Made by a program: the position numbers and the translations under genes | Assembly (NCBI RefSeq): GCF_029525575.1 | Contig: NZ_JAPDIA010000003.1 | Coordinates: 2,348,214 to 2,412,213, forward strand | Reading direction: 5' to 3' | DNA: 64,000 bases | Source: Cohnella rhizosphaerae | Lineage (GTDB): Bacteria; Bacillota; Bacilli; Paenibacillales; Paenibacillaceae | Shown here: positions 4,238 through 56,965 of the stretch, one piece after another | How the letters are laid out: each line of letters starts with the position of its first letter | Numbering within the stretch: position 1 is the first letter of the stretch | Notes under the pieces: generated by a model | Told to the model about the DNA's origin: nothing | The model's input: the letters and a program-made list of their open reading frames with translations, nothing else | Databases searched by the model: none

Positions 4238-5794
4238 ATGAAATCTTTAAAATGGACATGGGCGGCCGCGGCGGCGGTCGCGCTGACCGTGAGCGGCTGC
4301 AGCGGCAACAATAATAACGAGCCGGCTGCAAGCGCCTCTAGCCCGGCAGATGCAAGCGCATCCGCCGGCGCGACGCAAAGCGGATCGCCGAGCGCGTCGG
4401 CCGCGCTGCCGGAGCCGGCGAAGATTCGTATTTTCACGGAAAACAACACGGCCTGGCCGCCGAAGCCGGACTGGGGCGTATGGAAGTGGGTCAAGGAAGA
4501 GACCAACATCGACGTCGAACAGGTGCTCGCGACCGGTCCGGAATCGCTGGCGCTGGCTGTCTCTTCGGGCGACATGCCCGACGTGCTGTCCGTCTTCCCG
4601 AACGACGTCCAGAAGTTCGGTTCCCAGGGCGCCTTCGAGGACCTGTCCAAGCACATGGACCAGATGCCGAACGTCAAGGCGTTCCTCGACAGCCATCCGG
4701 ACGTCATGTCCCGCGTGGTGTCGCCGAACGGCGAGATTTACAGCATTATTAACGACGGCGCGGGCGAAGGCAGCCAGATGGTCTGGTTCTATCGCGACGA
4801 CATCTTCCAGAAGAACAATCTCGAGGTTCCTAAAACGTGGGACGAGCTGTATACGGTATCCAAGAAGCTCAAGGAGCTTTATCCCGACAGCTATCCGTTC
4901 ATGTTCCGCCACGGCCTGAGCACGCTCGATACGTTCGCGCCTACCTTCGACTTTTATCCGGAGTTCTATCAGGATCCGGCCGACCCGACCAAGATGAAGT
5001 TCGGTCTCGAAGACCCGAACGCCAAGACGATGGTCGAATGGCTGAACAAGTTCGTGAAGGAAAAGCTCATCCCGCCGGACTGGCTGACGATGGATTACAA
5101 AGCCTGGACGCAGTTCATGTCGACCAACAAGTCGTTCGTCACCCTGCAGTTCATCGGCCAGATCGAAATTATGAACAGCCAGTTGACCGAAGGCCATCTG
5201 CAGTTCATGGCGCCTCCGATCGGCGCCGGCGACAAGCCATACCTGCCGAAGGGCGGCCAAGAGGGCTACGGCCTGGCCGTCGCCTCCACGTCCAAGAACA
5301 AGGACGCGGCTTACCGCTACCTGGACTATATCTTCTCCGAGAAGGGCAAGGACATCCAGAGCTGGGGCAAGGAAGGCGAGACGTATACGGTCGTCGACGG
5401 CAAGCGCAAGTTTAACGACAACTACAAGGAAGCGAACGACCTGCGCGTCATCTCCGGCATCCAGACCGCCGCGACCTACGGCTGGTTCGACTTCAACGCA
5501 TGGCTCTCGCTGGTCAAGCCGGAAGAGCAATACGCGTACGTCGAGGCGCCGAAGTACCGGTTCCCCGTCGCCTACAGCCGTCCGAACCTGACCGCCGACG
5601 AAGCGGCCGCGCTCTCGACGTCGAACGACCAGTTGTGGAAGTTCTGGACGGGCGAAGTGACGAAGTTCATCAACGGCGACCGGCCGCTCTCCGAGTGGGA
5701 CGCCTTCATCAAGGATCTCGGCAAGCACGATCTCGAGAAAGTCCGTACGACGTACCAGACGGCGCTCGATCGTCAGCTCGCGAATACGAAGTAA
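4238..5794 (+). CDS. Extracellular sugar-binding lipoprotein of an ABC importer
   Basis: Length is 518 aa. The N-terminus has a signal peptide with lipobox VSGC (Cys near residue 21) and then a low-complexity Ala/Ser/Asn linker typical of Gram-positive binding lipoproteins. The mature part shows the family-1 extracellular solute-binding fold, with YRDDIFQKNNLEVPKTWDEL as the usual hinge-region signature. It delivers a carbohydrate ligand to the two permeases encoded just downstream. No ATPase is encoded nearby; such systems normally share an MsmX-type ATPase encoded elsewhere. The preceding membrane AraC protein is the likely activator. Confidence 0.9.
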   Translation: MKSLKWTWAAAAAVALTVSGCSGNNNNEPAASASSPADASASAGATQSGSPSASAALPEPAKIRIFTENNTAWPPKPDWGVWKWVKEETNIDVEQVLATGPESLALAVSSGDMPDVLSVFPNDVQKFGSQGAFEDLSKHMDQMPNVKAFLDSHPDVMSRVVSPNGEIYSIINDGAGEGSQMVWFYRDDIFQKNNLEVPKTWDELYTVSKKLKELYPDSYPFMFRHGLSTLDTFAPTFDFYPEFYQDPADPTKMKFGLEDPNAKTMVEWLNKFVKEKLIPPDWLTMDYKAWTQFMSTNKSFVTLQFIGQIEIMNSQLTEGHLQFMAPPIGAGDKPYLPKGGQEGYGLAVASTSKNKDAAYRYLDYIFSEKGKDIQSWGKEGETYTVVDGKRKFNDNYKEANDLRVISGIQTAATYGWFDFNAWLSLVKPEEQYAYVEAPKYRFPVAYSRPNLTADEAAALSTSNDQLWKFWTGEVTKFINGDRPLSEWDAFIKDLGKHDLEKVRTTYQTALDRQLANTK

Positions 5795-17108: not shown

Positions 17109-19029
17109 TCAGGGCCGCGCCTTCGGCTCAAGCACCGGCGCTCCGCTTCGCGAGATCAGCCACGCGACCGCGCTTCTCGGCGCGAGCGCAGCCTCCCCGG
17201 CGATCGTAGCCGGCACGGCCTCCCCGGTCCAGAATGAGGTCCACGCGAGATCGGATGCCTGGAAGGATTCGGGAATCCGCTGCGTCCGGTAATCGTCGCC
17301 GAGATTGAACAGCGCGAGCAGCCGAATGTCCGGGTCGTCCGTCTCGGCCGCGACGACCGGCAGCTCGTCGCCGTCCGGCGCGAACAGGTTAAGCGGGATG
17401 CCGCGCCGAACCGGAGGCTGCCGCAGCAGGCCGGCGAGCAGCCCGGTGCCGACGCCGTTCAGCTTGTCGAGCGCGTCCCCCAGCAGGAGATCGCCTCCGC
17501 TGGCATAGCAGGCGAGGAGCAGCGTCTTGGCTTCCTCCAGGTTCATCTCCCTGCCCGCCGCCCAGCCGCCGCCGAGTCCCCACGGATTTTTCGCCAGCCG
17601 GCGGTTGAGCCGGCGGTCGTCCGTCGTATCCGGGCAGCGTACGATGGCGGTGTCGGGATCCGTATTGCCGACGGCCCCCTGCATCCACCATCTCGCCAGC
17701 ATCGAGCGGATATTCTGGCGAATATGGCTCCAATAATTGTGGATGTCTCCCGTCGTGCGGTGCGCGTCCGCGATGCCGATGACGGCTTCGTAGGGCGCGC
17801 CGCAGGCGAGCAAGTAGGCATCCGGCCCGATCGCCTCGCGGATGACCTCGAACAGCCGCCGGATCATGCCGGCGTGCGACATGCGGCTGCTGTGGAAGGC
17901 GGAGGCGCCGAGCAGCAGCTGGGCGAAGTCGCATTTAAAATAGGTAAAGCCGGCGGCGCGAAGCCGCTCGAACGTCTTGCGGATATGCGCCTCGACTTGC
18001 GGGTGCGTCACATCCAGCTGAACCATGCTGCCGTAGCCCGCATTTTCGACAAAGGGGTCGCCCTTCTCGTCGCCGACGAACCAGTCCGGGTGCTCGCGGT
18101 AAAGCGGCGTATACACGCCGACCATAAGCGGCGCGGTCCAGATGCCGGGTTCATAGCCTTCGGCGCGGATCTGCGCGCAGAGGGCATCCAGCCCCTGCGG
18201 AAATTTCCAGCCGGCGTCCCAGACGCCCCACTGGCGCTCGTAGCCTTCGTCGATGACGACGTACCGCAAGCCAGCGCCGAAAAGCTTGTTCGCCGCGTTC
18301 GCGTTGGCCAGCACGTCTTCGGCTTGAACGGCGCCCGCATAGTAATCCCAGCTGTTCCAGCCGCCGATGCGGGCCGCGGGCTGACGATATTGCAACGCGG
18401 CGAGCCGCTGCCGCATCCGCTCCGCATATTCGGACAGCAGCGCGATGCCGTCGTCCCCTTGCAGCACGATCAGGTGCGCCAGGACGTCGTGCTCACCCGG
18501 ATCCAGCTCGCGCGTGGCGCGGAGATGGAAGCCGAGTCCGAACGCGCCGTCGCGATGGGGCTGCGCATGCAGAATCGCGATATCGACGAAGCAATCGCCA
18601 AAGGGCGGCAGCGCGCCGAGCAGGATGCAGGCGCCCGTCCGACGGTGGCAGATGACGCTTACCATGCCGGAGGGCTCTGCGCCGGGCGACCAAGCGGCGG
18701 GCCGATGGAGCGGGCGAACCCCGGAATGGCCGGAGAAATCGCGGGCATGATGGAGCTGGACGTAATCCCGCGCATCGAGCCGGTCGCCCAGGCTGGAGGC
18801 GGACCATTCCAGCCGGATCTCGCGCATCGCGAGCGGCTCGGGCCCGTCGTTGACGACGGAGACCGTCTGCGTGCCGTCGGCCGCGGAAGCCAGCGACACG
18901 CTGAGCCGGTCCGCGCGGAACGCCGGATATTCGCCCGCTGCCGGTGCATGGAATCCGCCCTGAAGGTACCAGCCGGAGCCTGAAGCGGCTACGGGCAGCC
19001 GCGCGCAGCGGCGGCAGTTCGAATCGCAT
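17109..19029 (-). CDS. Clan D (GH36/GH27-like) alpha-galactosidase-type glycosidase (frameshifted near N-terminus)
   Basis: The catalytic region carries GGWNSWDYYAG, YVVIDEGYERQWGVW, PGIWTAPLMVG and FTYFKCDFAQLLL. The Asp of KCDF is in the position of the GH36/GH27 nucleophile. The N-terminal beta-sandwich and C-terminal beta domain fit the family. The continuous frame begins only at 18899, but an ATG at 19029 is preceded by a strong AAGGGGGG site, and a one-base correction near 18993-18995 joins it to GWYLQGGFHAPAAGEYPAF for a 639-aa protein. No signal peptide, so it probably acts on imported oligosaccharides. It is the only minus-strand enzyme gene in the cluster. Its stop codon directly abuts that of the convergent DUF4091 gene. 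Confidence 0.78.
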
Positions 19030-19327: not shown

Positions 19328-20831
19328 TTGATCTTGGACAGACCGATTGAACGGAGGATTGGCAAACGGCGGGCATGGGCGTTCGTCATCTGCATGTTGT
19401 GCGCGGGAGTCTTGGCGGGCTGCGCGGGAACGGGCGCTTCGTCCGGCGCGGCGGAGGGAACCGCCTCGTCCGGGCTGGTGCCGGTGGACCTGGTATGGTA
19501 TTACCCGCAATACGGGGCGAATCCCGACCAGCAGCTCGTGAATGACGCGGTCAACGAAATTACCCGGAACAAGATCAACGCCACCGTCGACTTGCGGCCG
19601 ATCGACTTTGCCAATTACGAGCAGAAGCTGAATACGATCGTCGCCTCCAGCGAGCCGATGGACATCCTCTGGACCTCCAACTGGCTGTTCCAGTGGTCGA
19701 CCAACGCCAAAAAAAGGCGTGTTCCGGCCGATCGACGATCTGCTCGGCCAATACGGCGGGCAACTGCTCGCGTCGATGGACGAGAAGTACTGGAACGGCG
19801 GCAAGCTTGGCGGCAAAACGTACGCGGTCCCGAACTATCAAATCTCCGCGATGCGTCCGAGCCTGGTGATCCAGAAGCGCTTCCTCGACAAATACAAGCT
19901 GGACGTCGGCAAGCTCAAGCGGATCGAGGACATCGAGCCTTTTCTGAAGCAGATCAAGGAAGGGGAGAAGGGCGTCGTTCCGTTCGGCACGACACGCGGC
20001 TTCTATACGAATCTCCTGTACGGCATCGACTGGAACGTGCCGGTCTACCGCAACGATCCGACGCCGACGGTGCTGCCGGACGTCACCGCGGAGATGCGGG
20101 CCAACTTCGTCCTGATGCACGACTGGTACACGAAGGGCTATATTAATGAAGACGCAGCTACGCTCAAGGATGCCGCGCAAGCCTACAATAATGGAAACAC
20201 GGCGGTGTGGTTCGATATTACGGGCAAGCCGGGCTCGGAAGTCGAGTTCAAAGCCGCGGACGGCGGCTACGACGTGCAGCTCGTGCCGGTCGCCGGATCG
20301 GTCTTCGTCGGCGCCGGCAACTCGATGAACGCGATCAGCCGTACCTCCGCCCATCCCGAGCGGGCCCTCATGCTGCTGGAGCTGGTGAATACGGACAAGC
20401 AGCTGTACAATCTGCTCGTTTACGGCATCGAAGGCAAGCATTATACGAAGACGACCGGCAACTTCATCCGGACGAATCCCGACAGCGGCTACTTTACGAA
20501 TACGGACTGGGTGTTCGGCGACATCCGCAACGAGTACCTGCCCGAAGGTTCGCCGCCCGGCAAGATCGAGGATACGATACGCGCGAACGAAGAAGCGGCC
20601 GTATCCGCCTTCGACGGCTTCGAGTTCGACCCGGACGCCGTCAAGACGGAGATCGCGAACGTGCGCGCCGTCAACGACGAATATTATCCCGCCCTCGCCA
20701 CGGGCACGATCGATCCGGCGCGCTTCCTGGCGGAGTATGAGGACAAGCTCGCGAAGGCGGGCGCCGGCGTGATCGTCCAGGAGAAGCAGAAGCAGCTGGA
20801 CGCTTGGCTGAAGGCGAAGGGGAAGAAGTAG
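19328..20831 (+). CDS. DUF3502-type sugar-binding lipoprotein (frameshifted as sequenced)
   Basis: This is the first of three paralogues in the window. A signal peptide ends in lipobox LAGC, followed by VPVDLVWYYPQYGANPDQQL, which parallels the ELTWYYPQNAANADL segment of the other two. The C-terminal part matches the DUF3502 region. The A7 run at 19709-19715 shifts the frame; with six A the sequence reads NAKKGVFRPIDDLLGQ and gives about 500 aa. The start is TTG at 19328 or 19334, both behind GAGGAGGA; the latter has better spacing. It presumably supplies ligand to the permeases at 21.7-23.5 kb, from which it is separated by a repeat array. Confidence 0.85.
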
Positions 20832-20850
20832 CCGGGCCGGGCCGGCTTAA

Positions 20851-21404
20851 CGATGCGCTGCATCGCTATCCTCGCCAAAGTACCAATCTCCTGCGAAATA
20901 ACGATGCGCCACATCGCTATTGCCGCCAAAGTACCAATCTCCGGCGAAATAACGATGCGCCGCATCGTTATTGCCGCCAAAGTACCAATCTCCTGCGAAA
21001 TAACGATGCGCCGCATCGCTATTCCCGCTAAAGTACCAATCTCCGGCGAAATAACGATGCGCCGCATCGCTATTCCCGCCCAAGTACCAATCTCCGGCGA
21101 AATAACGATGCGCCACATCGCTATTGCCGCCCAAGTACCAATCTCCGGCGAAATAACGATGCGCCGCATCGTTATTGCCGCCAAAGTACCAATCTCCGGC
21201 GAAATAACGATGAGCCACATCGCTATTGCCGCCAAAGTACCAATCTCCGGCGAAATAACGATGCGCCGCATCGCTATTCCCGCCCAAGTACCAATCTCCT
21301 GCGAAATAACGATGCGCCGCATCGCTATTGCCGCCCAAGTACCAATCTCCGGCGAAATAACGATGCGCCGCATCGCTATCCTCGCCCTAGTACCGCCCGC
21401 CGCC
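20851..21404 (+). repeat. Tandem array of 11 x 51-bp units with internal inverted repeat
   Basis: Copies begin every 51 bp from 20851 to 21361. Each contains CGATGCGCCGCATCG (7-bp arms around one base, often extended to AATAACGATGCG / CGCATCGTTATT) and a conserved GTACCAATCTCCGGCGAAAT segment. Copies differ at only a few positions. Because 51 is divisible by three, both strands appear open (for example MRRIAIAAQVPISGEIT repeated), but no ribosome binding site precedes these frames and I treat the array as non-coding. It sits between a binding-protein gene and its permease genes. The remaining ~260 bp to 21666 contain nothing else clear. Confidence 0.9.
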
Positions 21405-21665
21405 GAATTTACCTTTCACGCCATGTTGCTTTAGCCCCGCATACATGCAGCCGCAGCCGCGAACGACGGGATTTTCCCCGTCCGTTCAGCGGCTTTTTTC
21501 GTATGGCCGCCGCATGCGCGGAATCGGGCAGAAAAAAGCAAATCGCGCACTTCTGCGGAGAGTAAAGTACGATTTCTTCACTTTATTTGGTCCCGAAACG
21601 GCGATATCGTCAAGGCATGAGCAAGGGCAAGACGCAAATCCAAGCAGCAAGGAGGACGCCGGCCG

Positions 21666-22584
21666 ATGAAACGCGGCAAGTTTTTAAAGTTTGTGAGCAG
21701 GAACGGCGAATTGTTTATTTTCTCGCTTCCCGCGATCATCTACATTTTCATCATGTCGTATGTCCCGATGTTCGGCGTAATTATCGCTTTCAAAAATTAC
21801 GTGTACGACAAGGGCATTCTGGGAAGCGAATGGGTCGGCTTCAAAAACTTCAAGTTCCTGTTCGAGAGCGAAAACGCCTTTCGGATCACGCGGAACACGG
21901 TGCTGTACAACCTGGGCTACATGTTCATGACGACCGTATTCTCGCTGGCCGTGGCCATCTTGCTCCACGAAGTCGCCAAGAAGTGGCTGAAGATTTACCA
22001 GACCGCGATGATCCTGCCTTTCTTCCTGTCGTGGGTCGTCGTCAGCTACATTACGATGGCGTTCCTCGACCACCAGAACGGCTTCCTGAACGGTTGGCTC
22101 GAGGGGGCTCGGGTTCGACCGGGTCCAATGGTACTTCAAGGCCAACGTCTGGCCCTACATTCTGAACGCGGTCCATCTGTGGAAAGCGATCGGCTTCTCG
22201 GCGCTCGTGTACTTCGCCGGCATTCTCGGCATCGACGCGGAGCTGTACGAGGCGGCCAAGATCGACGGCGCGAAGCGCTGGCAGATGATCACCAACGTCA
22301 CGATTCCCCAGTTGACCCCGCTTATCATCATTCTGCTGATCATGAGCATCGGCAATATGTTCCGCGGCGACTTCGGGCTTCACTACTTCATCCCGAACAA
22401 TAACGGCATGACGTACGCCACGACGGACATTATCGACACCTATATTTATCGGGCGCTCAGCGAGCTAGGGGATGTCAGCATGGCCTCCGCCGTCGGTCTC
22501 TATCAATCGGTCGTCGGCCTCGTGCTCGTCGTCGCCGCGAATTATACGGTCCGCAAAATCAACGAAGAAAATTCCTTGTTTTAA
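21666..22584 (+). CDS. Sugar ABC transporter permease, LplB-like (frameshifted as sequenced)
   Basis: After correction this is a 305-aa protein with six membrane helices and EAA motif EAAKIDGAKRWQMITNVTIP. The G5 run 22103-22107 breaks the frame; with four G the sequence continues GWLEGLGFDRVQWYFKANVW and joins the second half. The last codons overlap the ribosome binding site of the next permease (TTTTAAGGAGG). Together with 22598-23536 it forms the channel for DUF3502-type binding proteins. Confidence 0.88.
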
Positions 22585-22597
22585 GGAGGCCAGTTCC

Positions 22598-23536
22598 ATG
22601 ACCGCCAAGTCTGTACCCGCCAAGGCCGTTGCCGTCCAGCCCGCCAGGGCCAAGTCTTCTTTCAAATGGTCGAACCTAATCATCCATCTCATCTTTATCT
22701 TGATTACGCTCAGCATGGTCGTGCCATTGGCGCTCGTTATCGTGGTGTCGCTGACGGACGAAAATTCGATCTTGCATCACGGATACCGCATGATCCCGGA
22801 TAAGCTCTCCTTTTCGGCTTATGAGTACTTTTTCAAATCGCCCGACGCGATCCTTCGCGCTTACGGCGTAACGATCTTCGTCGCCGTCGTCGGCACGATC
22901 CTAAGCCTGATCCTGACGGCCAGCATGGGCTATACGTTGTCCCGAAGGGATTACGGCCTCGTGCGGCCGACCTCCTTCTACGTTTTCTTCACGATGCTGT
23001 TCGGCGGCGGGCTCGTCCCGTTCTACATTCTGGTCACGCAGTATTTGCACTTGAAGGATACGATCTGGGCGCTGATCGTGCCGGGGATGCTCAGTCCGTT
23101 CTACGTGCTGATCATGAAGGGCTTCATGTCCAAGATTCCGTTCGAAATCGTCGAGTCCGCCAAGGTGGAGGGCGCGCGGGAATGGCGAATCTTCGTGCAG
23201 CTGATCCTGCCGCTGTCCAAACCGTCGCTCGCGACCCTCGGCTTGTTCATCATGTTCAACTATTGGAACGAATGGTTCAACGCGCTGCTGTTCATCGACA
23301 ACGAGCGACTGGTCCCGCTGCAGCTGCTGCTGGTGCGTACGATGAACTCGCTCGACTTTATCACCTCGCGGCCCGAATTCGCGCTCGTCATGTCCAACTT
23401 CAACTTGGCGAACTTCCCGAAGACGGCGGCCAAGTTCGCGATCGCCATCCTGTCCGCGGGTCCGATGCTGATCGTCTTCCCGTTCTTCCAGCGCTTTTTC
23501 GTCAAAGGGTTGACCGTAGGCGCGATCAAGGGTTAA
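22598..23536 (+). CDS. Sugar ABC transporter permease, YtcP/LplC-like
   Basis: Length is 312 aa from ATG 22598 with AAGGAGG 8 bases upstream. The loop ESAKVEGAREWRIFVQLILP is the EAA-type ATPase contact, and the C-terminus RFFVKGLTVGAIKG is typical of this subfamily. It has a longer, Ala/Lys-rich N-terminus than its counterpart at 6774. It is co-transcribed with 21666-22584 and followed by two binding-protein genes. Confidence 0.92.
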   Translation: MTAKSVPAKAVAVQPARAKSSFKWSNLIIHLIFILITLSMVVPLALVIVVSLTDENSILHHGYRMIPDKLSFSAYEYFFKSPDAILRAYGVTIFVAVVGTILSLILTASMGYTLSRRDYGLVRPTSFYVFFTMLFGGGLVPFYILVTQYLHLKDTIWALIVPGMLSPFYVLIMKGFMSKIPFEIVESAKVEGAREWRIFVQLILPLSKPSLATLGLFIMFNYWNEWFNALLFIDNERLVPLQLLLVRTMNSLDFITSRPEFALVMSNFNLANFPKTAAKFAIAILSAGPMLIVFPFFQRFFVKGLTVGAIKG

Positions 23537-23715: not shown

Positions 23716-25281
23716 TTGCAAAAAACAAACAGCAGCAAATTCAAATTCCGGACTACGCTTCTCACTTCGATCTCGCTGGCGGCTGCGCTTACGGCAGCAG
23801 GCTGCGGCAACTCCAACAACAATTCGAACGCTTCGCCGAGCGCCGCCGCTTCCGGCAGCGCCAGCGCGACCGCGTCGGCGTCGGCCGCGGCTTCGGGCAG
23901 CGCCTCCGCTTCGGCAAGCAGCGAGCTTGAGCCTGTAGAGCTCACCTGGTATTACCCGCAAAACGCGGCGAACGCCGACCTGAAGCTCGTCAACGACGCG
24001 GTCAACAAGATTACGAAGGAAAAAATCAACGCGACGATCAAGCTCATGCCGATCGACTTCGGCACCTACGAGCAGAAGATGAATACGACGACGGCGGCCA
24101 GCGAGAAGATCGACATCATCTGGACCTCCAACTGGCTGTTCAAGTTCGATACGAACCAGAAGAAGGGCGTATTCCTGCCGCTCGACGATCTGCTGAAGTC
24201 CAGCGGACAGAAGCTGTACGATTCGATGCAAAAGAAGTTCTGGGACGACGCGACGCTGGACGGCAAAATCTACGCCGTGCCGAACTTCCAAGTCTCGGCC
24301 AGCCGCCCTTCGCTCGTGCTCCAGAAGCGGTTCGTCGACAAATACAACCTCGATCTCGGCACGATCAAGAAGATCGACGACATCGAGCCTTTCCTGAAGC
24401 AAATCAAGGACGGCGAGCCGGGCATCACGCCTTTCGGCACGACCAAAGGCTTCTACTCGGGCCTCATGTACAACATCGACAACAGGGTCGAAGTCTACAG
24501 GGACGACACGACGCACACCGTCCTGCCGGACGTAACGGACGAACTGAAGCACAGCTACGAGCTCGCGCATTCCTGGTACACGAAGGGCTATATCATGGAA
24601 GACGCGGCGACGCTCAAATCCGCCGCGGATGCCTACAACAAGGGCACGACGGCCGTTTGGTTCGACGTAACCGGCAAGCCGGGCTCCGAGGTCGAGTTCA
24701 AGGTCGCGGACGGCGGCTACGACGTCGTGCTCGCGCCGCTGGCGCAGTCCACGTTCACCGGCGCGGCCAGCACGATGAACGCCATCAGCCGCACATCCAA
24801 AAATCCGGAGCGCGCGATGATGTTCCTCGAGCTCGTCAACACCGACAAGGAGCTCTACAACACGCTCGTTTACGGCATCGAAGGCAAGCACTACGAGAAG
24901 ACGACGGGCAACTACATCAAGATCAACCAGGACGCCGGTTACTTCACGAACACGGACTGGATCTTCGGCAACATCACGAACGAATACCTGCCCGAAGGCG
25001 CTCCGGAAGACAAGATCGAGCAGACGATCAAGGTTAACGACGAGGCGTACGTATCCCCGTACACGGGCTTTGTGTTCAATACGGAGCCGGTCAAGACGGA
25101 GATCGCTAACGTGAACGCGGTCAAGGAAGAGTACGGCGCATCGCTCGGCACCGGCACGCTCGATCCGGCGAAGTATCTGCCGATCTACGAAGAAAAGCTG
25201 AAAAAGGCCGGCGTCGAAACGATCCGCGCCGAGAAGCAGAAGCAGCTGAACGAATGGCTGGCCGCCAACGGCAAGAGCTAA
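23716..25281 (+). CDS. DUF3502-type sugar-binding lipoprotein
   Basis: Length is 521 aa from TTG 23716, preceded by GGGAGGG at 6-bp spacing. Signal peptide with lipobox TAAGC is followed by a long Ser/Ala linker, then ELTWYYPQNAANADLKLVND and the DUF3502 C-terminal region (GTLDPAKYLPIYEEKLKKAG). It is very similar along its whole length to the next gene (25371-26930), indicating a tandem duplication, and more distantly to 19328-20831. It likely binds oligosaccharides for the permeases upstream. Confidence 0.92.
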   Translation: MQKTNSSKFKFRTTLLTSISLAAALTAAGCGNSNNNSNASPSAAASGSASATASASAAASGSASASASSELEPVELTWYYPQNAANADLKLVNDAVNKITKEKINATIKLMPIDFGTYEQKMNTTTAASEKIDIIWTSNWLFKFDTNQKKGVFLPLDDLLKSSGQKLYDSMQKKFWDDATLDGKIYAVPNFQVSASRPSLVLQKRFVDKYNLDLGTIKKIDDIEPFLKQIKDGEPGITPFGTTKGFYSGLMYNIDNRVEVYRDDTTHTVLPDVTDELKHSYELAHSWYTKGYIMEDAATLKSAADAYNKGTTAVWFDVTGKPGSEVEFKVADGGYDVVLAPLAQSTFTGAASTMNAISRTSKNPERAMMFLELVNTDKELYNTLVYGIEGKHYEKTTGNYIKINQDAGYFTNTDWIFGNITNEYLPEGAPEDKIEQTIKVNDEAYVSPYTGFVFNTEPVKTEIANVNAVKEEYGASLGTGTLDPAKYLPIYEEKLKKAGVETIRAEKQKQLNEWLAANGKS

Positions 25282-25370
25282 GCGCGGGGTGAGTCAAAAC
25301 GGGACGAGTGGCGAGGCATGCTGCACGGCATGAAATGGCATCGACATCCAACATATCGGGAGGGTTTATG

Positions 25371-26930
25371 TTGCAAAAAACAATGAACGGCAAATCCGGA
25401 TTCCGAACCACGCTCCTCGCCTCGATCTCGCTTGGCGTTGCGCTTGCCGCGGCAGGCTGCGGCAATTCCTCCAACAACGGCGACGCCTCGCCGAGCGCCT
25501 CCGCTTCCGGCAGCGCCGGCGCGACCGCATCGGCCGCGGCTTCCGGCAGCGCTTCCCCTTCGGCGAGCAGCGAGCTCCCGCCCGTCGAACTGACCTGGTA
25601 CTATCCGCAAAACGCGGCGAACGCCGACCTACAGCTGGTGAACGACGCGGTCAACAAGATCGCCAAGGAAAAGATCAACGCGACGGTCAAGCTGAGTCCG
25701 ATCGACTTCGGCACCTACGAGCAGAAGATGAACACGATGACCGCCTCCGGCGAGAAGATGGACATCGTCTGGACGTCCAGCTGGCTGTTCAAGTTCGATC
25801 AGAATCAGCTGAAGGGCGCGTTCCTGCCGCTCGACGATCTGCTGAAGACGAGCGGGCAGAAGCTGTACGATTCGCTGGAAAAGAAGTTCTGGGACGACGC
25901 CACGCTCCAAGGCAAGATCTATGCGGTGCCGAACTTCCAATTTTCCGCCCAGCGCGCGAGCGTCGTCATTCAGAAGCGGTTCATCGACAAGTACAACCTT
26001 GATGTCAGCACGATCAAGAAGATGGAAGACCTGGAGCCGTTCCTGAAGCAGATCAAGGAAGGCGAGCCGGGCATCACGCCCTTCGGGACGCAGAAGGGCT
26101 TCTACACGGCGCTGCTGTACGGCATCGACACCAAAGTGCCGGTCTACTATACCGATGAGACGAATACCGTCCTTCCCGACGTGACGGACGAGATGAGGGC
26201 GAACTACGCGCTCGCTCACTCCTGGTACACGAAAGGATACATTAACCAAGACGCCGCGACGCTCAAGTCCGCAGCCGATGTTTACAACAAAGGAACGACG
26301 GCCGTCTGGTTCGACTGGACCGGCAAGCCGGGCTCCGAGGTCGAGTACAAGGCGGCCGACGGCGGCAACGACGTCGTGCTCGTGCCACTTGGCGAGCCTG
26401 TCTTTACCGGAGCGGCGAGTACGTTGAACGCCATCAGCCGCACGTCCGAAAATCCGGAGCGCGCGATGATGTTCCTCGAGCTCGTGAACACCGACAAGGA
26501 GCTTTACAACACGCTCGTTTACGGCATCGAAGGCAAGCACTACACGAAGACGACGGGCGACTTCATTAAGATCGACCAAACCGCGGGCTATTTCACCAAC
26601 ACGGACTGGATCTTCGGCAATATCACCAACGAGTATCTGCCCGAAGGTTCTCCGGCCGACAAGATCGAGCAGACGATCAAGATGAACGGCGATGCGCGCG
26701 TATCCAAGTATAACGGCTTCGTCTTCAACGGAGAAGCGGTCAAGACGGAGATTGCCAACGTCAACGCGGTGAACGGCGAATATGCCGCGTCTCTGGGCAC
26801 GGGCACGCTGGACCCGGCGAAGTACCTGCCGATCTACGAGGAGAAGCTGAAGAAGGCAGGAGCGGAGAAGATCCGCGCCGAGAAGCAGAAGCAGCTGAAC
26901 GAATGGCTGGCCGCCAACGGCAAGCAATAA
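25371..26930 (+). CDS. DUF3502-type sugar-binding lipoprotein (tandem paralogue)
   Basis: Length is 519 aa. I prefer the TTG at 25371 to the ATG at 25368, because the leader GGGAGGG-6 nt-TTGCAAAAAACA is the same as in the preceding paralogue. Lipobox AAAGC is followed by a Ser/Ala linker and the same DUF3502 architecture. Differences from 23716-25281 are spread through the protein (for example TWYYPQNAANADLQL against DLKL), so the two copies may have diverged in ligand preference. A terminator follows. Confidence 0.92.
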   Translation: MQKTMNGKSGFRTTLLASISLGVALAAAGCGNSSNNGDASPSASASGSAGATASAAASGSASPSASSELPPVELTWYYPQNAANADLQLVNDAVNKIAKEKINATVKLSPIDFGTYEQKMNTMTASGEKMDIVWTSSWLFKFDQNQLKGAFLPLDDLLKTSGQKLYDSLEKKFWDDATLQGKIYAVPNFQFSAQRASVVIQKRFIDKYNLDVSTIKKMEDLEPFLKQIKEGEPGITPFGTQKGFYTALLYGIDTKVPVYYTDETNTVLPDVTDEMRANYALAHSWYTKGYINQDAATLKSAADVYNKGTTAVWFDWTGKPGSEVEYKAADGGNDVVLVPLGEPVFTGAASTLNAISRTSENPERAMMFLELVNTDKELYNTLVYGIEGKHYTKTTGDFIKIDQTAGYFTNTDWIFGNITNEYLPEGSPADKIEQTIKMNGDARVSKYNGFVFNGEAVKTEIANVNAVNGEYAASLGTGTLDPAKYLPIYEEKLKKAGAEKIRAEKQKQLNEWLAANGKQ

Positions 26931-42847: not shown

Positions 42848-43602
42848 GCGTGGCGCAGCGACGTCCGGACCGAGCGGGTTTGCTCCTGCTTGGGGCTACC
42901 GTGGCGCAGCGACGCCCGGACCGAGCGGATTTGTTTCTACCTGGGACTACCGTGGCGCTGCGACGCCCGGACCGAGCGGGTTTGTTTCTACCTGGGACTA
43001 CCGTGGCGCAGCGACGCCCGGACCGAGCGGATTTGTTTCTGCCTGGGACTACCGTGGCGCAGCGATGCCCGGACCGAGCGGGTTTGTTTCTACCTGGGAC
43101 TACCGAGCTGCAGCGACGTTTGGACTGAGCGGGTTTGTTTCTACTTGGGACTACCGTGACGCAGGCGCCTGGACCGAGCGGGTTTGTTTCTACCTGAGAC
43201 TACCGTGGCGCTGCGACGCCCGGACCGAGCGGGTTTGTTTCTACCTGGGACTACCGAGCTGCAGCGACGCCTGGACCGAGCGGGTTTTTTTCTACCTGGG
43301 ACTACCGTGGCGCTGCGACGCCCGGACCGGGCGGGTTTGTTTCTACCTGGGACTACCGAGCTGCAGCGATGCCCGGACCGAGCGGATTTGTTTCTACCTG
43401 GGACTACCGAGCTGCAGCGACGCCTGGACCGAGCGGGTTTGTTTCTACCTGGGACTACCGTGGCGCAGCGACGCCCGGACCGAGCGGATTTGTTTCTGCC
43501 TGGGACTACCGTGGCGCAGCGATGCCCGGACCGAGCGGGTTTGTTTCTACCTGAGACTACCGTGGCGCAGCGATGCCCGGACCGAGCGGGTTTGTTTCTA
43601 AA
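42848..43602 (+). repeat. Tandem array of 15 x 51-bp units
   Basis: GGACCGAGCGG-type cores recur at 42867, 42918, 42969, 43020, 43071, 43122, 43171 and then every 51 bp to 43579 (one interval is 49 bp). Each unit also has TTTGTTTCTACCTGGGACTACC and either GTGGCGCAGCG or GAGCTGCAGCG. The core CGCCCGGACCGAGCG is an inverted repeat of 7-bp arms with one mismatch. Long reading frames on both strands reflect the multiple-of-three length only. The array fills the gap between the DUF1801 and DinB genes. Confidence 0.9.
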
Positions 43603-49065: not shown

Positions 49066-50205
49066 ATGTCATTTTCGATGGAAGTCCCAAGCCAGGAACA
49101 AATTAAGGTCGCGATCGAAGAAGAGGTCAAGCCCGTACCCGAGGAAGTCGCCAAGCTCAAGGAGCTGGCGGACAACAACGTGAACGCGATCATGTCGCTC
49201 GACCTCGAATCGCTCGACAATCGCAAGGGCATCCTCCAGTCGATCGATACGTTCGGCATGAACACGATGCGGTCTTCGTCCGAGAAAAACCAGCTGCTTC
49301 AAATCACGGTCGGCAACCTGTCGAAGACGGGCGACGACGGCGGCCAGGTCGCGAAGGGGCTCTCCGAGCTGAACATCCAGCTCAAGGATCTCGACCCCAG
49401 CGCCGTCGACTTCGCCAAGCACGGACTGCTCGGCAAGCTGTTCAATCCGCTGCGCGCTTACTTCGCGCGGTACGAAAAGGCGGACACCGTCATCGCGGAC
49501 ATCATCGTCTCCCTCGACAAGGGCAAGACGACGCTCAAAAACGACAATACGACGCTCGAAATCGAGCAGCAGACGCTGCGCGACCTGACCAAGAAGCTGC
49601 AAAAGGAAATCGAGCTCGGCACGCTCATGGATGCGTCGATCGAGCAGCAAGTCGAAGCGGCGAAGGTAAGGGGAGAAGACCCCGAGAAAATCCGCTTTAT
49701 CACCGAAGAGGTCATGTTCCCGCTGCGCCAGCGCCTGATGGATCTGCAGCAGATGCAGGTCGTCAACCAGCAGGGCATCATGGCGATCGAAGTCGTCGTG
49801 CGGAACAACAAGGAGCTCATTCGCGGCGTCGACCGCGCCAAGAACGTCACGGTGTCCGCGCTCAAGATCGCCGTCACCGTCGCAAGCGCGCTTTACAATC
49901 AGAAGATCGTGCTGAAGAAGATCGAGCTGCTCAACCAGACGACGAACGAGCTGATCGCCGGTACATCCCGGATGCTCAAAGACCAGGGCGCCGCGATTCA
50001 CAAGCAAGCGCTCGAGGCGAACATCTCGGTCGATACGATGAAGCAAGCGTTCACCGACGTGCTGTCCGCGCTCGATTCGATCAGCGCGTTCAAGCAGGAG
50101 GCGCTGCCGAAGATGCGCGAGACGATCAACCAGTTCCGCGAGCTGGCGGACACCGGAGAAAAGCAAATCCAGCGTCTCGAGCGGGGCAACAAGCTGGGCT
50201 TGTAA
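49066..50205 (+). CDS. telA: TelA/YaaN-family (toxic anion resistance) protein
   Basis: Length is 379 aa, almost entirely helical and cytoplasmic. It shows the TelA signature (FNPLRAYFARYEKADTVIADI, a long helical core, TVASALYNQKIVLKKIELLNQTTN). Family members are linked to tellurite and other envelope-stress resistances, with unclear biochemistry. The ribosome binding site AGGAGAGGTGG lies upstream of ATG 49066. The last nine codons (LERGNKLGL) are the first copy of a 42-43-bp repeat that continues beyond the stop. Confidence 0.9.
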   Translation: MSFSMEVPSQEQIKVAIEEEVKPVPEEVAKLKELADNNVNAIMSLDLESLDNRKGILQSIDTFGMNTMRSSSEKNQLLQITVGNLSKTGDDGGQVAKGLSELNIQLKDLDPSAVDFAKHGLLGKLFNPLRAYFARYEKADTVIADIIVSLDKGKTTLKNDNTTLEIEQQTLRDLTKKLQKEIELGTLMDASIEQQVEAAKVRGEDPEKIRFITEEVMFPLRQRLMDLQQMQVVNQQGIMAIEVVVRNNKELIRGVDRAKNVTVSALKIAVTVASALYNQKIVLKKIELLNQTTNELIAGTSRMLKDQGAAIHKQALEANISVDTMKQAFTDVLSALDSISAFKQEALPKMRETINQFRELADTGEKQIQRLERGNKLGL

Positions 50206-50335
50206 GCAAGTCAGTAATTCAAGCGGGGCAACAAGCTGGGTTTGTAAACCAATCCCGCATCTCCAGCGTGGCAACAAGCTTGGGTTGTAAGCAAGTCCAG
50301 CATTTCAAGCGGGTCAACAACAGGCTGGTCTTTTT
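50166..50335 (+). repeat. Four iterations of the telA 3' end (42-43 bp)
   Basis: The gene-terminal sequence containing GCGGGGCAACAAGCTGGG and TTGTAA recurs with TAA codons at 50203-50205, 50245-50247 and 50288-50290, and a fourth partial copy begins near 50309. Units have diverged by several substitutions and small indels. This looks like old slippage or tandem duplication that copied the stop codon. Confidence 0.8.
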
Positions 50336-50454: not shown

Positions 50455-51215
50455 CGCGACGGTGCGTGAGGCGAGCGGCGGCAGGCTTGCAGCGGCGAGC
50501 GCGGGGGTGGCGAGAACCGCACAATAATTGTGCGGTTCCGGGGCGGCGCGAGAAGCGCGAAGGGCGAGAGGAAGCCGGCGTGCAGCGGCGAGCGCGGGAT
50601 GGGCGAGAACGCACAATAATTGTGCGGTTCCGGGGCGGCGCGAGAAGCGCGAAGGGCGAGAGGAAGCCGGCGTGCAGCGGCGAGCGCGGGGTTGGCGAGA
50701 ACCGCACAATATTTGTGCGGTTCCGGGGCGGCGCGAGAAGCGCGAAGGGCGAGAGGAAGCCGGCGTGCAGTGGCGAGCGCGGGATGGGCGAGAACCGCAC
50801 AATAATTGTGCGGTTCCGGGGCGGCGCGAGAAGCGCGAAGGGCGAGAGGAAGCCGGCTTGCAGCGGCGAGCGCGAGGTTGGCGAGAACCGCACAATAATT
50901 GTGCGGTTCCGGGGCGGCGCGAGAAGCGCGAAGGGCGAGAGGAAGCCGGCGGGCAGCGGCGAGCGCGGGGGTGGCGAGAACCGCACAATAATTGTGCGGT
51001 TCCGGGGCGGCGCGAGAAGCGCGAAGGGCGAGAGGAAGCCGGCGTGCAGCGGCGAGCGCGGGGTTGGCGAGAACCGCACAATATTTGTGCGGTTCCGGGG
51101 CGGCGCGAGAAGCGCGAAGGGCGAGAGGAAGCCGGCGTGCAACGGCGAGCGCGGGGGTGGCGAGAACCGCACAATAATTGTGCGGTCCCGGGGCGGCGCG
51201 AGAGGCCCGCGAGAA
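50455..51215 (+). repeat. Tandem array of 8 x 93-bp units with perfect dyad
   Basis: Dyads recur at 92-93-bp steps (first one centred near 50527, last near 51177). The arms GAACCGCACAAT and ATTGTGCGGTTC flank a single A, giving a 12-bp perfect inverted repeat in most copies. Two copies carry ATATTTG in the centre (11-bp arms, 3-nt loop) and one lacks a C. The rest of the unit is GC-rich (GCGCGAGAAGCGCGAAGGGC) and almost invariant. Long frames in several phases arise because 93 is a multiple of three; no start signals support them. Confidence 0.9.
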
Positions 51216-56535: not shown

Positions 56536-56965
56536 CGATTTATGCCGCGCCAAGATGCACAAAAAATGTGCATCTTTAGGGCAAATATAACGCATCGCGG
56601 CCACTGCCGCGCCAAGATGCACAAAAAATGTGCATCTTTAGGGCGAACACGACGCCTCGCGGCCACTGCCGCGCCAAGATGCACAAAAAATGTGCATCTT
56701 TAGGCCAAACACAACGCCTCGCGGCTACTGCCGCGCCAAGATGCACAAAAAATGTGCATCTTTAGGGCAAACACAACGCCTCGCGGCTACTGCCGCGCCA
56801 AGATGCACAAAAAATGTGCATCTTTAGGCCAAACACAACGCCTCGCGGCCACTGCCGCGCCAAGATGCACAAAAAATGTGCATCTTTAGGGCAAACACAA
56901 CGCCTCGCGGTAGCGTCAAGATGCACAAAAAATGTGCATCTTTAACGCAAGCGCGACACCTGCGG
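56536..56965 (+). repeat. Tandem array of 7 x 62-bp units with perfect A-loop hairpin
   Basis: Hairpins start at 56554, 56616, 56678, 56740, 56802, 56864 and 56920 (the last unit is 6 bp short). Each has arms AAGATGCACA and TGTGCATCTT around five A, plus a second small stem CGCGG ... CCGCG. The A-loop hairpin is identical in all seven copies, while the rest varies slightly. It lies between the convergent xylF and tetR genes. At 62 bp it is not a multiple of three, so a coding role is excluded. Confidence 0.9.

Follow-up and report, generated by a model that had tools for sequence, protein, structure and literature searches.

Tandem 51-bp arrays beside gene 3' ends in Cohnella rhizosphaerae: one period, exchangeable sequence families

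Introduction

A stretch of 64,000 nucleotides of the Cohnella rhizosphaerae genome (the window, contig NZ_JAPDIA010000003.1) carries a tandem array of 51-bp palindromic units between a binding-protein gene and the permease genes that follow it. What is such an array doing at this position? The first-pass annotation, made from the letters of the window, placed it inside one transport operon and proposed that it could set the ratio of binding protein to permease or serve as a multi-site binding platform. The array, its locus and its class were analysed in 1.2 Mb, the window and individual loci of the same genome, and in 0.1-0.6 Mb of three other array-bearing genomes.

Results

The array in the window

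Tandem Repeats Finder placed the array at 20848-21379, with a period of 51, 10.4 copies, 93% matches, 0% indels and a score of 917, confirming that a 51-bp array lies where it had been reported. Each unit (array at about 20848-21380, no strand assigned) was found to consist of a 25-bp palindromic core, AATAACGATGCGCCGCATCGYTATT, and a spacer of approximately 26 bp. When written from 20848 the array forms 11 rows of 51; the final row diverges past approximately 21386, and in the row-by-row alignment of units the decayed end of the last unit occupies 21381-21404 (no strand). The core AATANNGATGNNNNNCATCNNTATT occurred 11 times in the window with up to 3 mismatches, compared to a chance mean of 0.12. 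The eleven units first described are thus present, but by-eye counts found the 7-bp dyad CGATGCG-C-CGCATCG perfect in 7 of 11 and the 12-bp arms, said to be frequent, perfect in just two, those at 20950 and 21154. Spacers were near-identical across the units, so that whole units are conserved within this array as had been claimed; compared to related arrays elsewhere, the core and the 51-bp spacing are common and the approximately 26-bp spacer is not. A T run, which every hairpin of an array of intrinsic terminators would carry, followed the core in none of the 11 units, and curated Rfam models gave no match at the gathering threshold anywhere in the window.

The transporter locus

Upstream of the array lies a binding-protein gene of lipoprotein type (19328-20831, plus strand), read in two frames (19328-20146 and 19719-20831), with a DUF3502 domain (PF12010) found on 19719-20828 at an E value of 6e-22. 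The array begins 17 bp past its stop codon. Downstream, an intrinsic terminator with a long stem followed by TTTTTT (21455-21499, plus strand) was present in five of the five closest relatives; it was not picked up by a simple terminator scan, and the hairpin and T run in the gap between array and permease folded at -30.8 kcal/mol over a 66-nt stretch. The alignment of relatives also revealed a conserved stretch 5' of the permease gene (21536-21600, plus strand), presumed from its place to be a promoter or leader, although a scan upstream of the permease gene for sigma-70-like sites found none. The first permease gene (21666-22584, plus strand) is frame-shifted in the assembly (frames 21666-22403 and 22207-22584), and its 5' frame taken alone had no match in Pfam. 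It is followed by a second permease gene with a BPD_transp_1 domain (22598-23536, plus strand, from its open reading frame and Pfam) and by two more tandem DUF3502 binding-protein genes (23716-25281 and 25308-26930, from Pfam). A Melibiase-like gene of the alpha-galactosidase type (17109-18899, minus strand) lies beside the transporter and hints at its sugar.

The genome assembly comprises 8,497,463 bases in 9 contigs, and Table 1 of PMC10308117 gives the assembly of C. rhizosphaerae DSM 28161 as Nanopore-only. Coding sequence was predicted for a fraction of 0.75 of the genome stretch, compared to 0.86-0.90 in relatives, as is expected for such an assembly. Because of this, and because all five relatives have the first permease as an uninterrupted reading frame of the expected length, assembly errors (indels) most likely account for the frameshifts in both the binding-protein gene and the first permease gene.

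These findings show that the array does lie between a binding-protein gene and permease genes, as first noted, with DUF3502 upstream and BPD_transp_1 downstream. They do not agree with its placement inside one transport operon, because a terminator kept in the five closest relatives separates it from the permease; the array lies in the tail of the binding-protein gene. Since it begins 17 bp after the stop codon and precedes the terminator, it probably forms part of the transcript's 3' UTR. Nothing was found in favour of a role in setting the ratio of binding protein to permease: the arrays had neither a sense/antisense preference nor, at other loci, a constant position relative to terminators.

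A class of noncoding arrays with a common period

The window array is one of very many such arrays in the C. rhizosphaerae genome. In the 1.2 Mb, 73 noncoding tandem arrays were found, and the fundamental period was 50-52 in 49 of them (51 in 38, 52 in seven and 50 in four); pieces of two CRISPR loci made up 11 of the remaining 24 noncoding rows. Coding arrays in the same scan had other periods, none of them 51. Array length reached approximately 30 units in the class. Noncoding 51-bp arrays were also found in C. hashimotonis (G013; nine), strain JJ-181 (G018; one) and a further Cohnella genome, G033 (four), and none in 100 kb each of genomes G020 and G042. Among 64 non-Cohnella loci fetched for another purpose there were five arrays of 51 or 52 bp, and the class also occurs in some Paenibacillus. 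At approximately 8.1-8.8 kb of loci L234, L242, L243 and L244, arrays of 51 or 101 bp were observed in what appears to be another orthologous transporter locus, in four Cohnella species.

When 81 arrays were clustered with a threshold set above all 600 shuffled pairs, 15 clusters were obtained, comprising two large chained ones (36 and 27 arrays) and eleven singletons. A palindrome beat the shuffles at p<=0.05 in 17 of the 81 consensus units, and the idea of a palindrome universal to the class was rejected on this count.

The A-type core, that of the window array, was found at 75 sites in the genome with up to 2 mismatches, compared to 0 for the reversed pattern; a genome-wide search for the unit, proposed as a check, thus uncovered related arrays elsewhere. 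Ten further core loci were nearly all 51-bp core arrays whose spacers vary from array to array; two of them (L025 and L028) are three-unit remnants and one (L027) has a variant core. The two remnants, on different contigs (approximately 4985-5110 and 5042-5167 of their loci), are alike in core and spacers, as if an entire array had been duplicated into another site. Tandem A-type pairs at 51 +/- 2 bp occurred in 7 of 37 Cohnella genomes and in none of 258 other Paenibacillaceae genomes, and plasmids gave no match. The core ATARSG-N11-CSYTAT was present at 55 distinct sites with a gap of 11 and at no more than 2 with every other gap from 9 to 19; inner core positions that had not been used for selection paired in 45, 47 and 41 of the 55 sites, respectively. 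The stems were of three main types, ATG/CAT, GAA/TTC and GCA/TGC. Among 45 distinct cores, 30 two-sided cells were counted compared to 17.2 in shuffled sets, a value reached in 0 of 500 shuffles, and the covariation score behaved likewise, relatedness among the cores being uncontrolled in both. For the same 45 cores, pairs with two-sided changes numbered 4 compared to a shuffled mean of 4.7, and further pair types 9 compared to 9.5.

Exchange of families at orthologous sites

Orthologous sites were located one by one in the relatives because there was almost no synteny between the stretches of C. rhizosphaerae and C. hashimotonis. At site 1, that of the window array, C. rhizosphaerae has 11 A units; C. 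ginsengisoli (G012) has one A unit, six B units of 52 bp, three A units and one decayed unit; OV330 (G036) has 2.4 B units, C. hashimotonis one B and a decayed A, and GbtcB17 (G005) one A unit. No array was found at this site in JJ-181 or in the more distant G007 and G015. At the switch from B to A in C. ginsengisoli, the final B core leads into an A-type spacer, the core spacing is 51 throughout, and the phase of the approximately 10.3-bp G+C oscillation drifts with no jump. Site 2 is the second 51-bp array of the window (42849-43600, no strand), which lies 3' of a gene; it is of type E in C. rhizosphaerae and GbtcB17. Type H takes its place in OV330, C. hashimotonis and JJ-181, and the units measure 51 bp in every case; C. 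ginsengisoli was excluded from this comparison since its anchor was not found and the locus could not be read. Site 3 carries type D in C. rhizosphaerae, C. hashimotonis and JJ-181, and the array is absent in three of five relatives. At site 4, C. rhizosphaerae has type D, and GbtcB17, OV330 and C. hashimotonis have type H; JJ-181 has six H units followed by two D units in a single register, and C. ginsengisoli has one H-like copy.

As to conservation in sister strains, repeat units were therefore present at the site of the window array in four of five close relatives. Two of the three circumstances under which the first-pass annotation would have taken the array for a neutral expansion do not hold, given these same-site units and the core sites elsewhere. 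Arrays are dispensable at a given site, because site 3 is empty in three of five relatives and site 1 is empty in JJ-181. No binding sequence was conserved at the orthologous sites, since at sites 1, 2 and 4 several relatives have another type or a mixture of two, and the proposal of a sequence-specific multi-site platform is weakened by the finding that other families occupy the orthologous sites of a given family.

A helical rhythm of G+C content

In 77 units of 50-53 bp, the power of AT-AT (WW) steps at k=5, the fifth harmonic, was 0.139 compared to 0.059. In 31 units without mutual similarity it was 0.147 compared to 0.057 in shuffled units, and k=5 was the top harmonic in 18 of the 31. 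Controls gave 0.067 compared to 0.060 for non-array intergenic DNA and 0.056 compared to 0.056 for coding DNA. Against dinucleotide-preserving shuffles, the z values for WW and GC were 4.4 and 6.0 in C. rhizosphaerae (n=21), 7.2 and 7.1 in other Cohnella (n=10) and 4.3 and 3.9 in Paenibacillus (n=5), respectively, and WW and SS steps were in antiphase within array units (mean cosine -0.85). These findings show that a G+C rhythm of approximately 10.2 bp, the fifth harmonic of 51, is a majority feature of unrelated units and is not universal. Phased G/C at approximately 10 bp was found for the class in all three groups, and in the window array k=5 ties with k=6: power was 35.3 at 10.2 bp compared to 36.4 at 8.5 bp, which speaks against a reading by shape. 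Types D and E had a WW k=5 power of approximately 0.005 and are thus without the rhythm, k=5 was the top harmonic in just 9 of 21 unrelated units of C. rhizosphaerae, and a weak excess at 10.0-10.6 bp was also present in the genome's bulk DNA outside arrays.

In all 10 palindromic units tested, the dyad fell where the rhythm is on its AT side; this is modest evidence, because a palindrome, being symmetric, can by itself contribute a phase of 0 or 180 degrees only. Spacer G+C was not mirror-symmetric about the dyad (mean r -0.05, n=10), and palindrome arms were less variable than spacers as a trend only, in 7 of 11 arrays (p 0.067). E. coli BIME-2, taken as a positive control in one region (sucB-sucC), had its peak at 9.0 bp and not at 10-10.5.

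Among non-51 arrays, the periods of 62 (window, 56543-56944, palindromic, no strand; a 10.35-bp G+C rhythm, 62/6), 114 and 115 bp fit a multiple of 10.35, and those of 47, 49, 61, another 62 and 93 bp do not. The 93-bp palindromic array of the window (50470-51203, no strand) lacks the 10.2-10.35-bp rhythm and peaks at 9.3. It follows directly on a 43-bp repeat at 50161-50320, has the palindrome GAACCGCACAAT-A-ATTGTGCGGTTC and extends to 51203. A ladder of helical periods (31, 41, 62, 72, 93 and 114 as n x 10.35) was considered and dropped, the non-51 arrays being few and mixed and including 47 bp three times and 49; the survey of these periods used a crude coding filter that dropped some 51-bp arrays. 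The clearest exceptions to the 51-bp rule are 47-bp arrays with related motifs on contig C5 of the same assembly (909683-910183 and 948943-949065).

Placement beside gene 3' ends

Gene calls for this comparison were made with our own script and not with a standard program. Of 52 arrays placed in the genome, 24 were in convergent, 25 in co-directional and 3 in divergent gaps, compared to 119, 441 and 123 background gaps of at least 60 bp, respectively. With arrays treated as independent, this is an enrichment in convergent gaps (p 1.6e-6) and a depletion in divergent ones (p 0.018). The window array is not among the 52; the caller read it as convergent, the permease being frame-shifted. Co-directional arrays were closer to the 3' end of the upstream gene in 23 of 25 cases. 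Twelve arrays of C. hashimotonis were distributed as 5 convergent, 7 co-directional and 0 divergent (p 0.04 and 0.14). At least one gene 3' end lay beside 49 of the 52 arrays, indicating that arrays lie downstream of transcription units. Of 73 gene-end sides, 25 had a terminator separating the gene from the array and 18 had one beyond the array, compared to 88 of 220 background gene ends; many arrays may therefore escape transcription.

Discussion

Repeats in bacteria are usually identified by their sequence. In these arrays, unrelated sequences were found at the same sites, on one 51-bp register and with a helical G+C rhythm in common. This suggests either that selection acts on DNA shape or that duplications arise by a mechanism with a five-turn ruler, and each of these would be new. 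The explanation we favour, tentatively and at somewhat less than even confidence, is that the class conserves DNA geometry and not sequence, as five-turn, G+C-phased units 3' of genes that act as DNA. Shape seems to matter over message because the letters swap at the same site while the five-turn length stays. A unit would be five helical turns (51 bp, at times 50 or 52) with G+C oscillating every approximately 10.2 bp and often a palindromic core; the array would act as a multi-turn bendable stretch of DNA, on which a wrapping protein may sit at places where positive supercoils accumulate through transcription. By analogy, the strongest candidate is DNA gyrase, with HU-type proteins or intrinsic curvature as alternatives. 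In the window, any action of the array would fall on the end of the binding-protein transcript and reach the permease genes indirectly. Absence of the A-type tandem core from most Cohnella and Paenibacillaceae genomes counts against a reading by shape.

Gyrase is named because length, rhythm and place match the extended E. coli motif from Topo-Seq, described in PMC6379681 (a further source is PMC12393610). According to PMC6379681, the motif spans 130 bp, its G/C content varies in 10-bp phase, its flanks are periodic at 47 bp, wraps measure 35-52 bp, and sites are enriched 3' of transcribed operons and in BIME-2, which binds gyrase in vivo. The Cohnella arrays resemble it in phased G/C, wrap length and position; they differ in being tandem arrays, whereas the E. 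coli motif is degenerate and occurs at single sites. Two statements in the same paper count against the comparison: the attraction of gyrase downstream of genes is seemingly not hard-wired in the E. coli sequence, and the BIME-2 gyrase signal goes up when transcription is blocked. A broader proposal, on the doubtful side although conceivable, is that Cohnella and some Paenibacillus possess very many sequence-agnostic geometry loci, at which letters are exchanged but site, register and helical phase stay the same. These would be docking tracks for gyrase or a nucleoid protein that absorb transcription-driven supercoiling and together form a genome-wide, shape-only topological system. These arrays make it possible to test if bacterial genomes reserve positions at gene ends for gyrase or nucleoid proteins, a point that PMC6379681 does not settle for E. 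coli.

The main rival, and a quite possible one, is that the arrays are minisatellites, neutral or selfish: tandem duplications of approximately 51 bp would be created and extended by some mechanism of replication or repair and survive only in promoter-free gaps, and turnover would swap the families. Copy number from 0 to 11, the change of types at orthologous sites, the tolerance of gene 3' ends and convergent gaps for any harmless insertion, and the approximately four fifths of consensus units without a palindrome that beats shuffles (17 of 81 have one) all agree with it. Taken alone, however, it leaves unexplained the exact 51 and the 10.2-bp G+C rhythm in unrelated units, as well as one core with differing spacers and the core swap that keeps register. 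An RNA element appears unlikely. Hairpins repeated along the 3' UTR would either make the binding-protein mRNA more stable or attenuate transcription, as the REP between malE and malF of E. coli has been described to do at the RNA level. The window array sits between stop codon and terminator, two of its units fold well (101 nt, z -6.2), and the core stems covary (30 two-sided cells compared to 17.2). Yet 34 co-directional arrays folded better in the sense direction in 15 cases and in the antisense direction in 19 (p 0.61), sense mismatches of co-directional palindromes were 20 G.U and 20 A.C (hand count, 23 arrays), wobble in the window array falls on the antisense strand, and the best local hairpins barely beat shuffled units (median -11.2 compared to -10.2 kcal/mol). 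Hairpins of sense-strand RNA were rejected for this lack of strand bias.

Less probable still, and in our view quite improbable, is that every palindromic family serves as operator for a separate dimeric DNA-binding protein. The ATARSG...CSYTAT core is kept at a single spacing, as a dimer site would have, and is common to several arrays, but common descent also gives a fixed spacing, at least six families would each need a separate protein, families are exchanged at the same sites, and many 51-bp arrays lack a clear palindrome. Coding repeats, that is 17-codon units in MIRU-like small ORFs, can practically be dismissed: although 51 equals 3 x 17 and the array can be read through in several frames, periods of 50 and 52 and single-unit indels break the frame, 48 and 54 are not favoured, and both strands have open frames, as palindromic stop-poor DNA would give. 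This explanation was rejected because the frame is not kept.

The arrays were compared with several known repeat systems. MIRU/VNTR minisatellites of mycobacteria are intergenic tandem repeats of approximately 50-80 bp with variable copy number, and MIRUs are defined by small ORFs in frame with flanking genes. The Cohnella arrays, by contrast, form many unrelated families on one period that are exchanged at orthologous sites, and their 50- and 52-bp arrays and frame-breaking units do not fit the MIRU definition. The centromere-like sopC of plasmid F is built of tandem units, each four to five helical turns long and with its own palindrome; unlike it, the Cohnella arrays come in several sequence families and are scattered across the chromosome, next to a great many gene ends. 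REP/BIME elements of enterobacteria are likewise intergenic palindromic repeats clustered near gene 3' ends, and many short extragenic palindromes were indeed found here (75 core sites compared to 0 in the control). However, REPs are spread by RAYT transposases, whereas the Cohnella arrays have exchangeable sequence and a fixed period, and the single BIME-2 region was without a 10.2-bp rhythm. In a six-frame search that read through stops (the C. rhizosphaerae assembly carries indels), the Y1 transposase PF01797 was not found in C. rhizosphaerae (G000), GbtcB17, C. ginsengisoli, JJ-181, G033 or OV330, and once in C. hashimotonis; RAYT-driven REPs were therefore rejected, six of seven array-bearing genomes being without it. 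The GTAG/CGTC tag was absent, by eye, from the A-type core AATARSGATG...CATCSYTATT and its junctions. As described in the available part of PMC3733652, the superfamilies of REPs so tagged are palindromes of 20-40 bp, some tandemly reiterated with flanking DNA; the length of that DNA is variable there and fixed at 51 bp in the Cohnella arrays, and this part of the text does not mention Paenibacillus, Cohnella or Firmicutes. In the literature searched, with subscription journals and preprint servers outside its scope, no description of such arrays was found, and a keyword search of two Cohnella genome papers, PMC10308117 among them, turned up no mention of them.

CRISPR arrays share a regular repeat and spacer of fixed total length. 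They differ in that spacers are identical within most 51-bp arrays, and the window array has no unrelated spacers. True CRISPR arrays elsewhere in the C. rhizosphaerae genome had periods of 65-69 bp. The two CRISPR loci are on contig C5 at approximately 1,026,633-1,028,759 and 1,039,285-1,041,492 (L147 and L148), with repeats containing GTGGATTGAAAT or its reverse complement.
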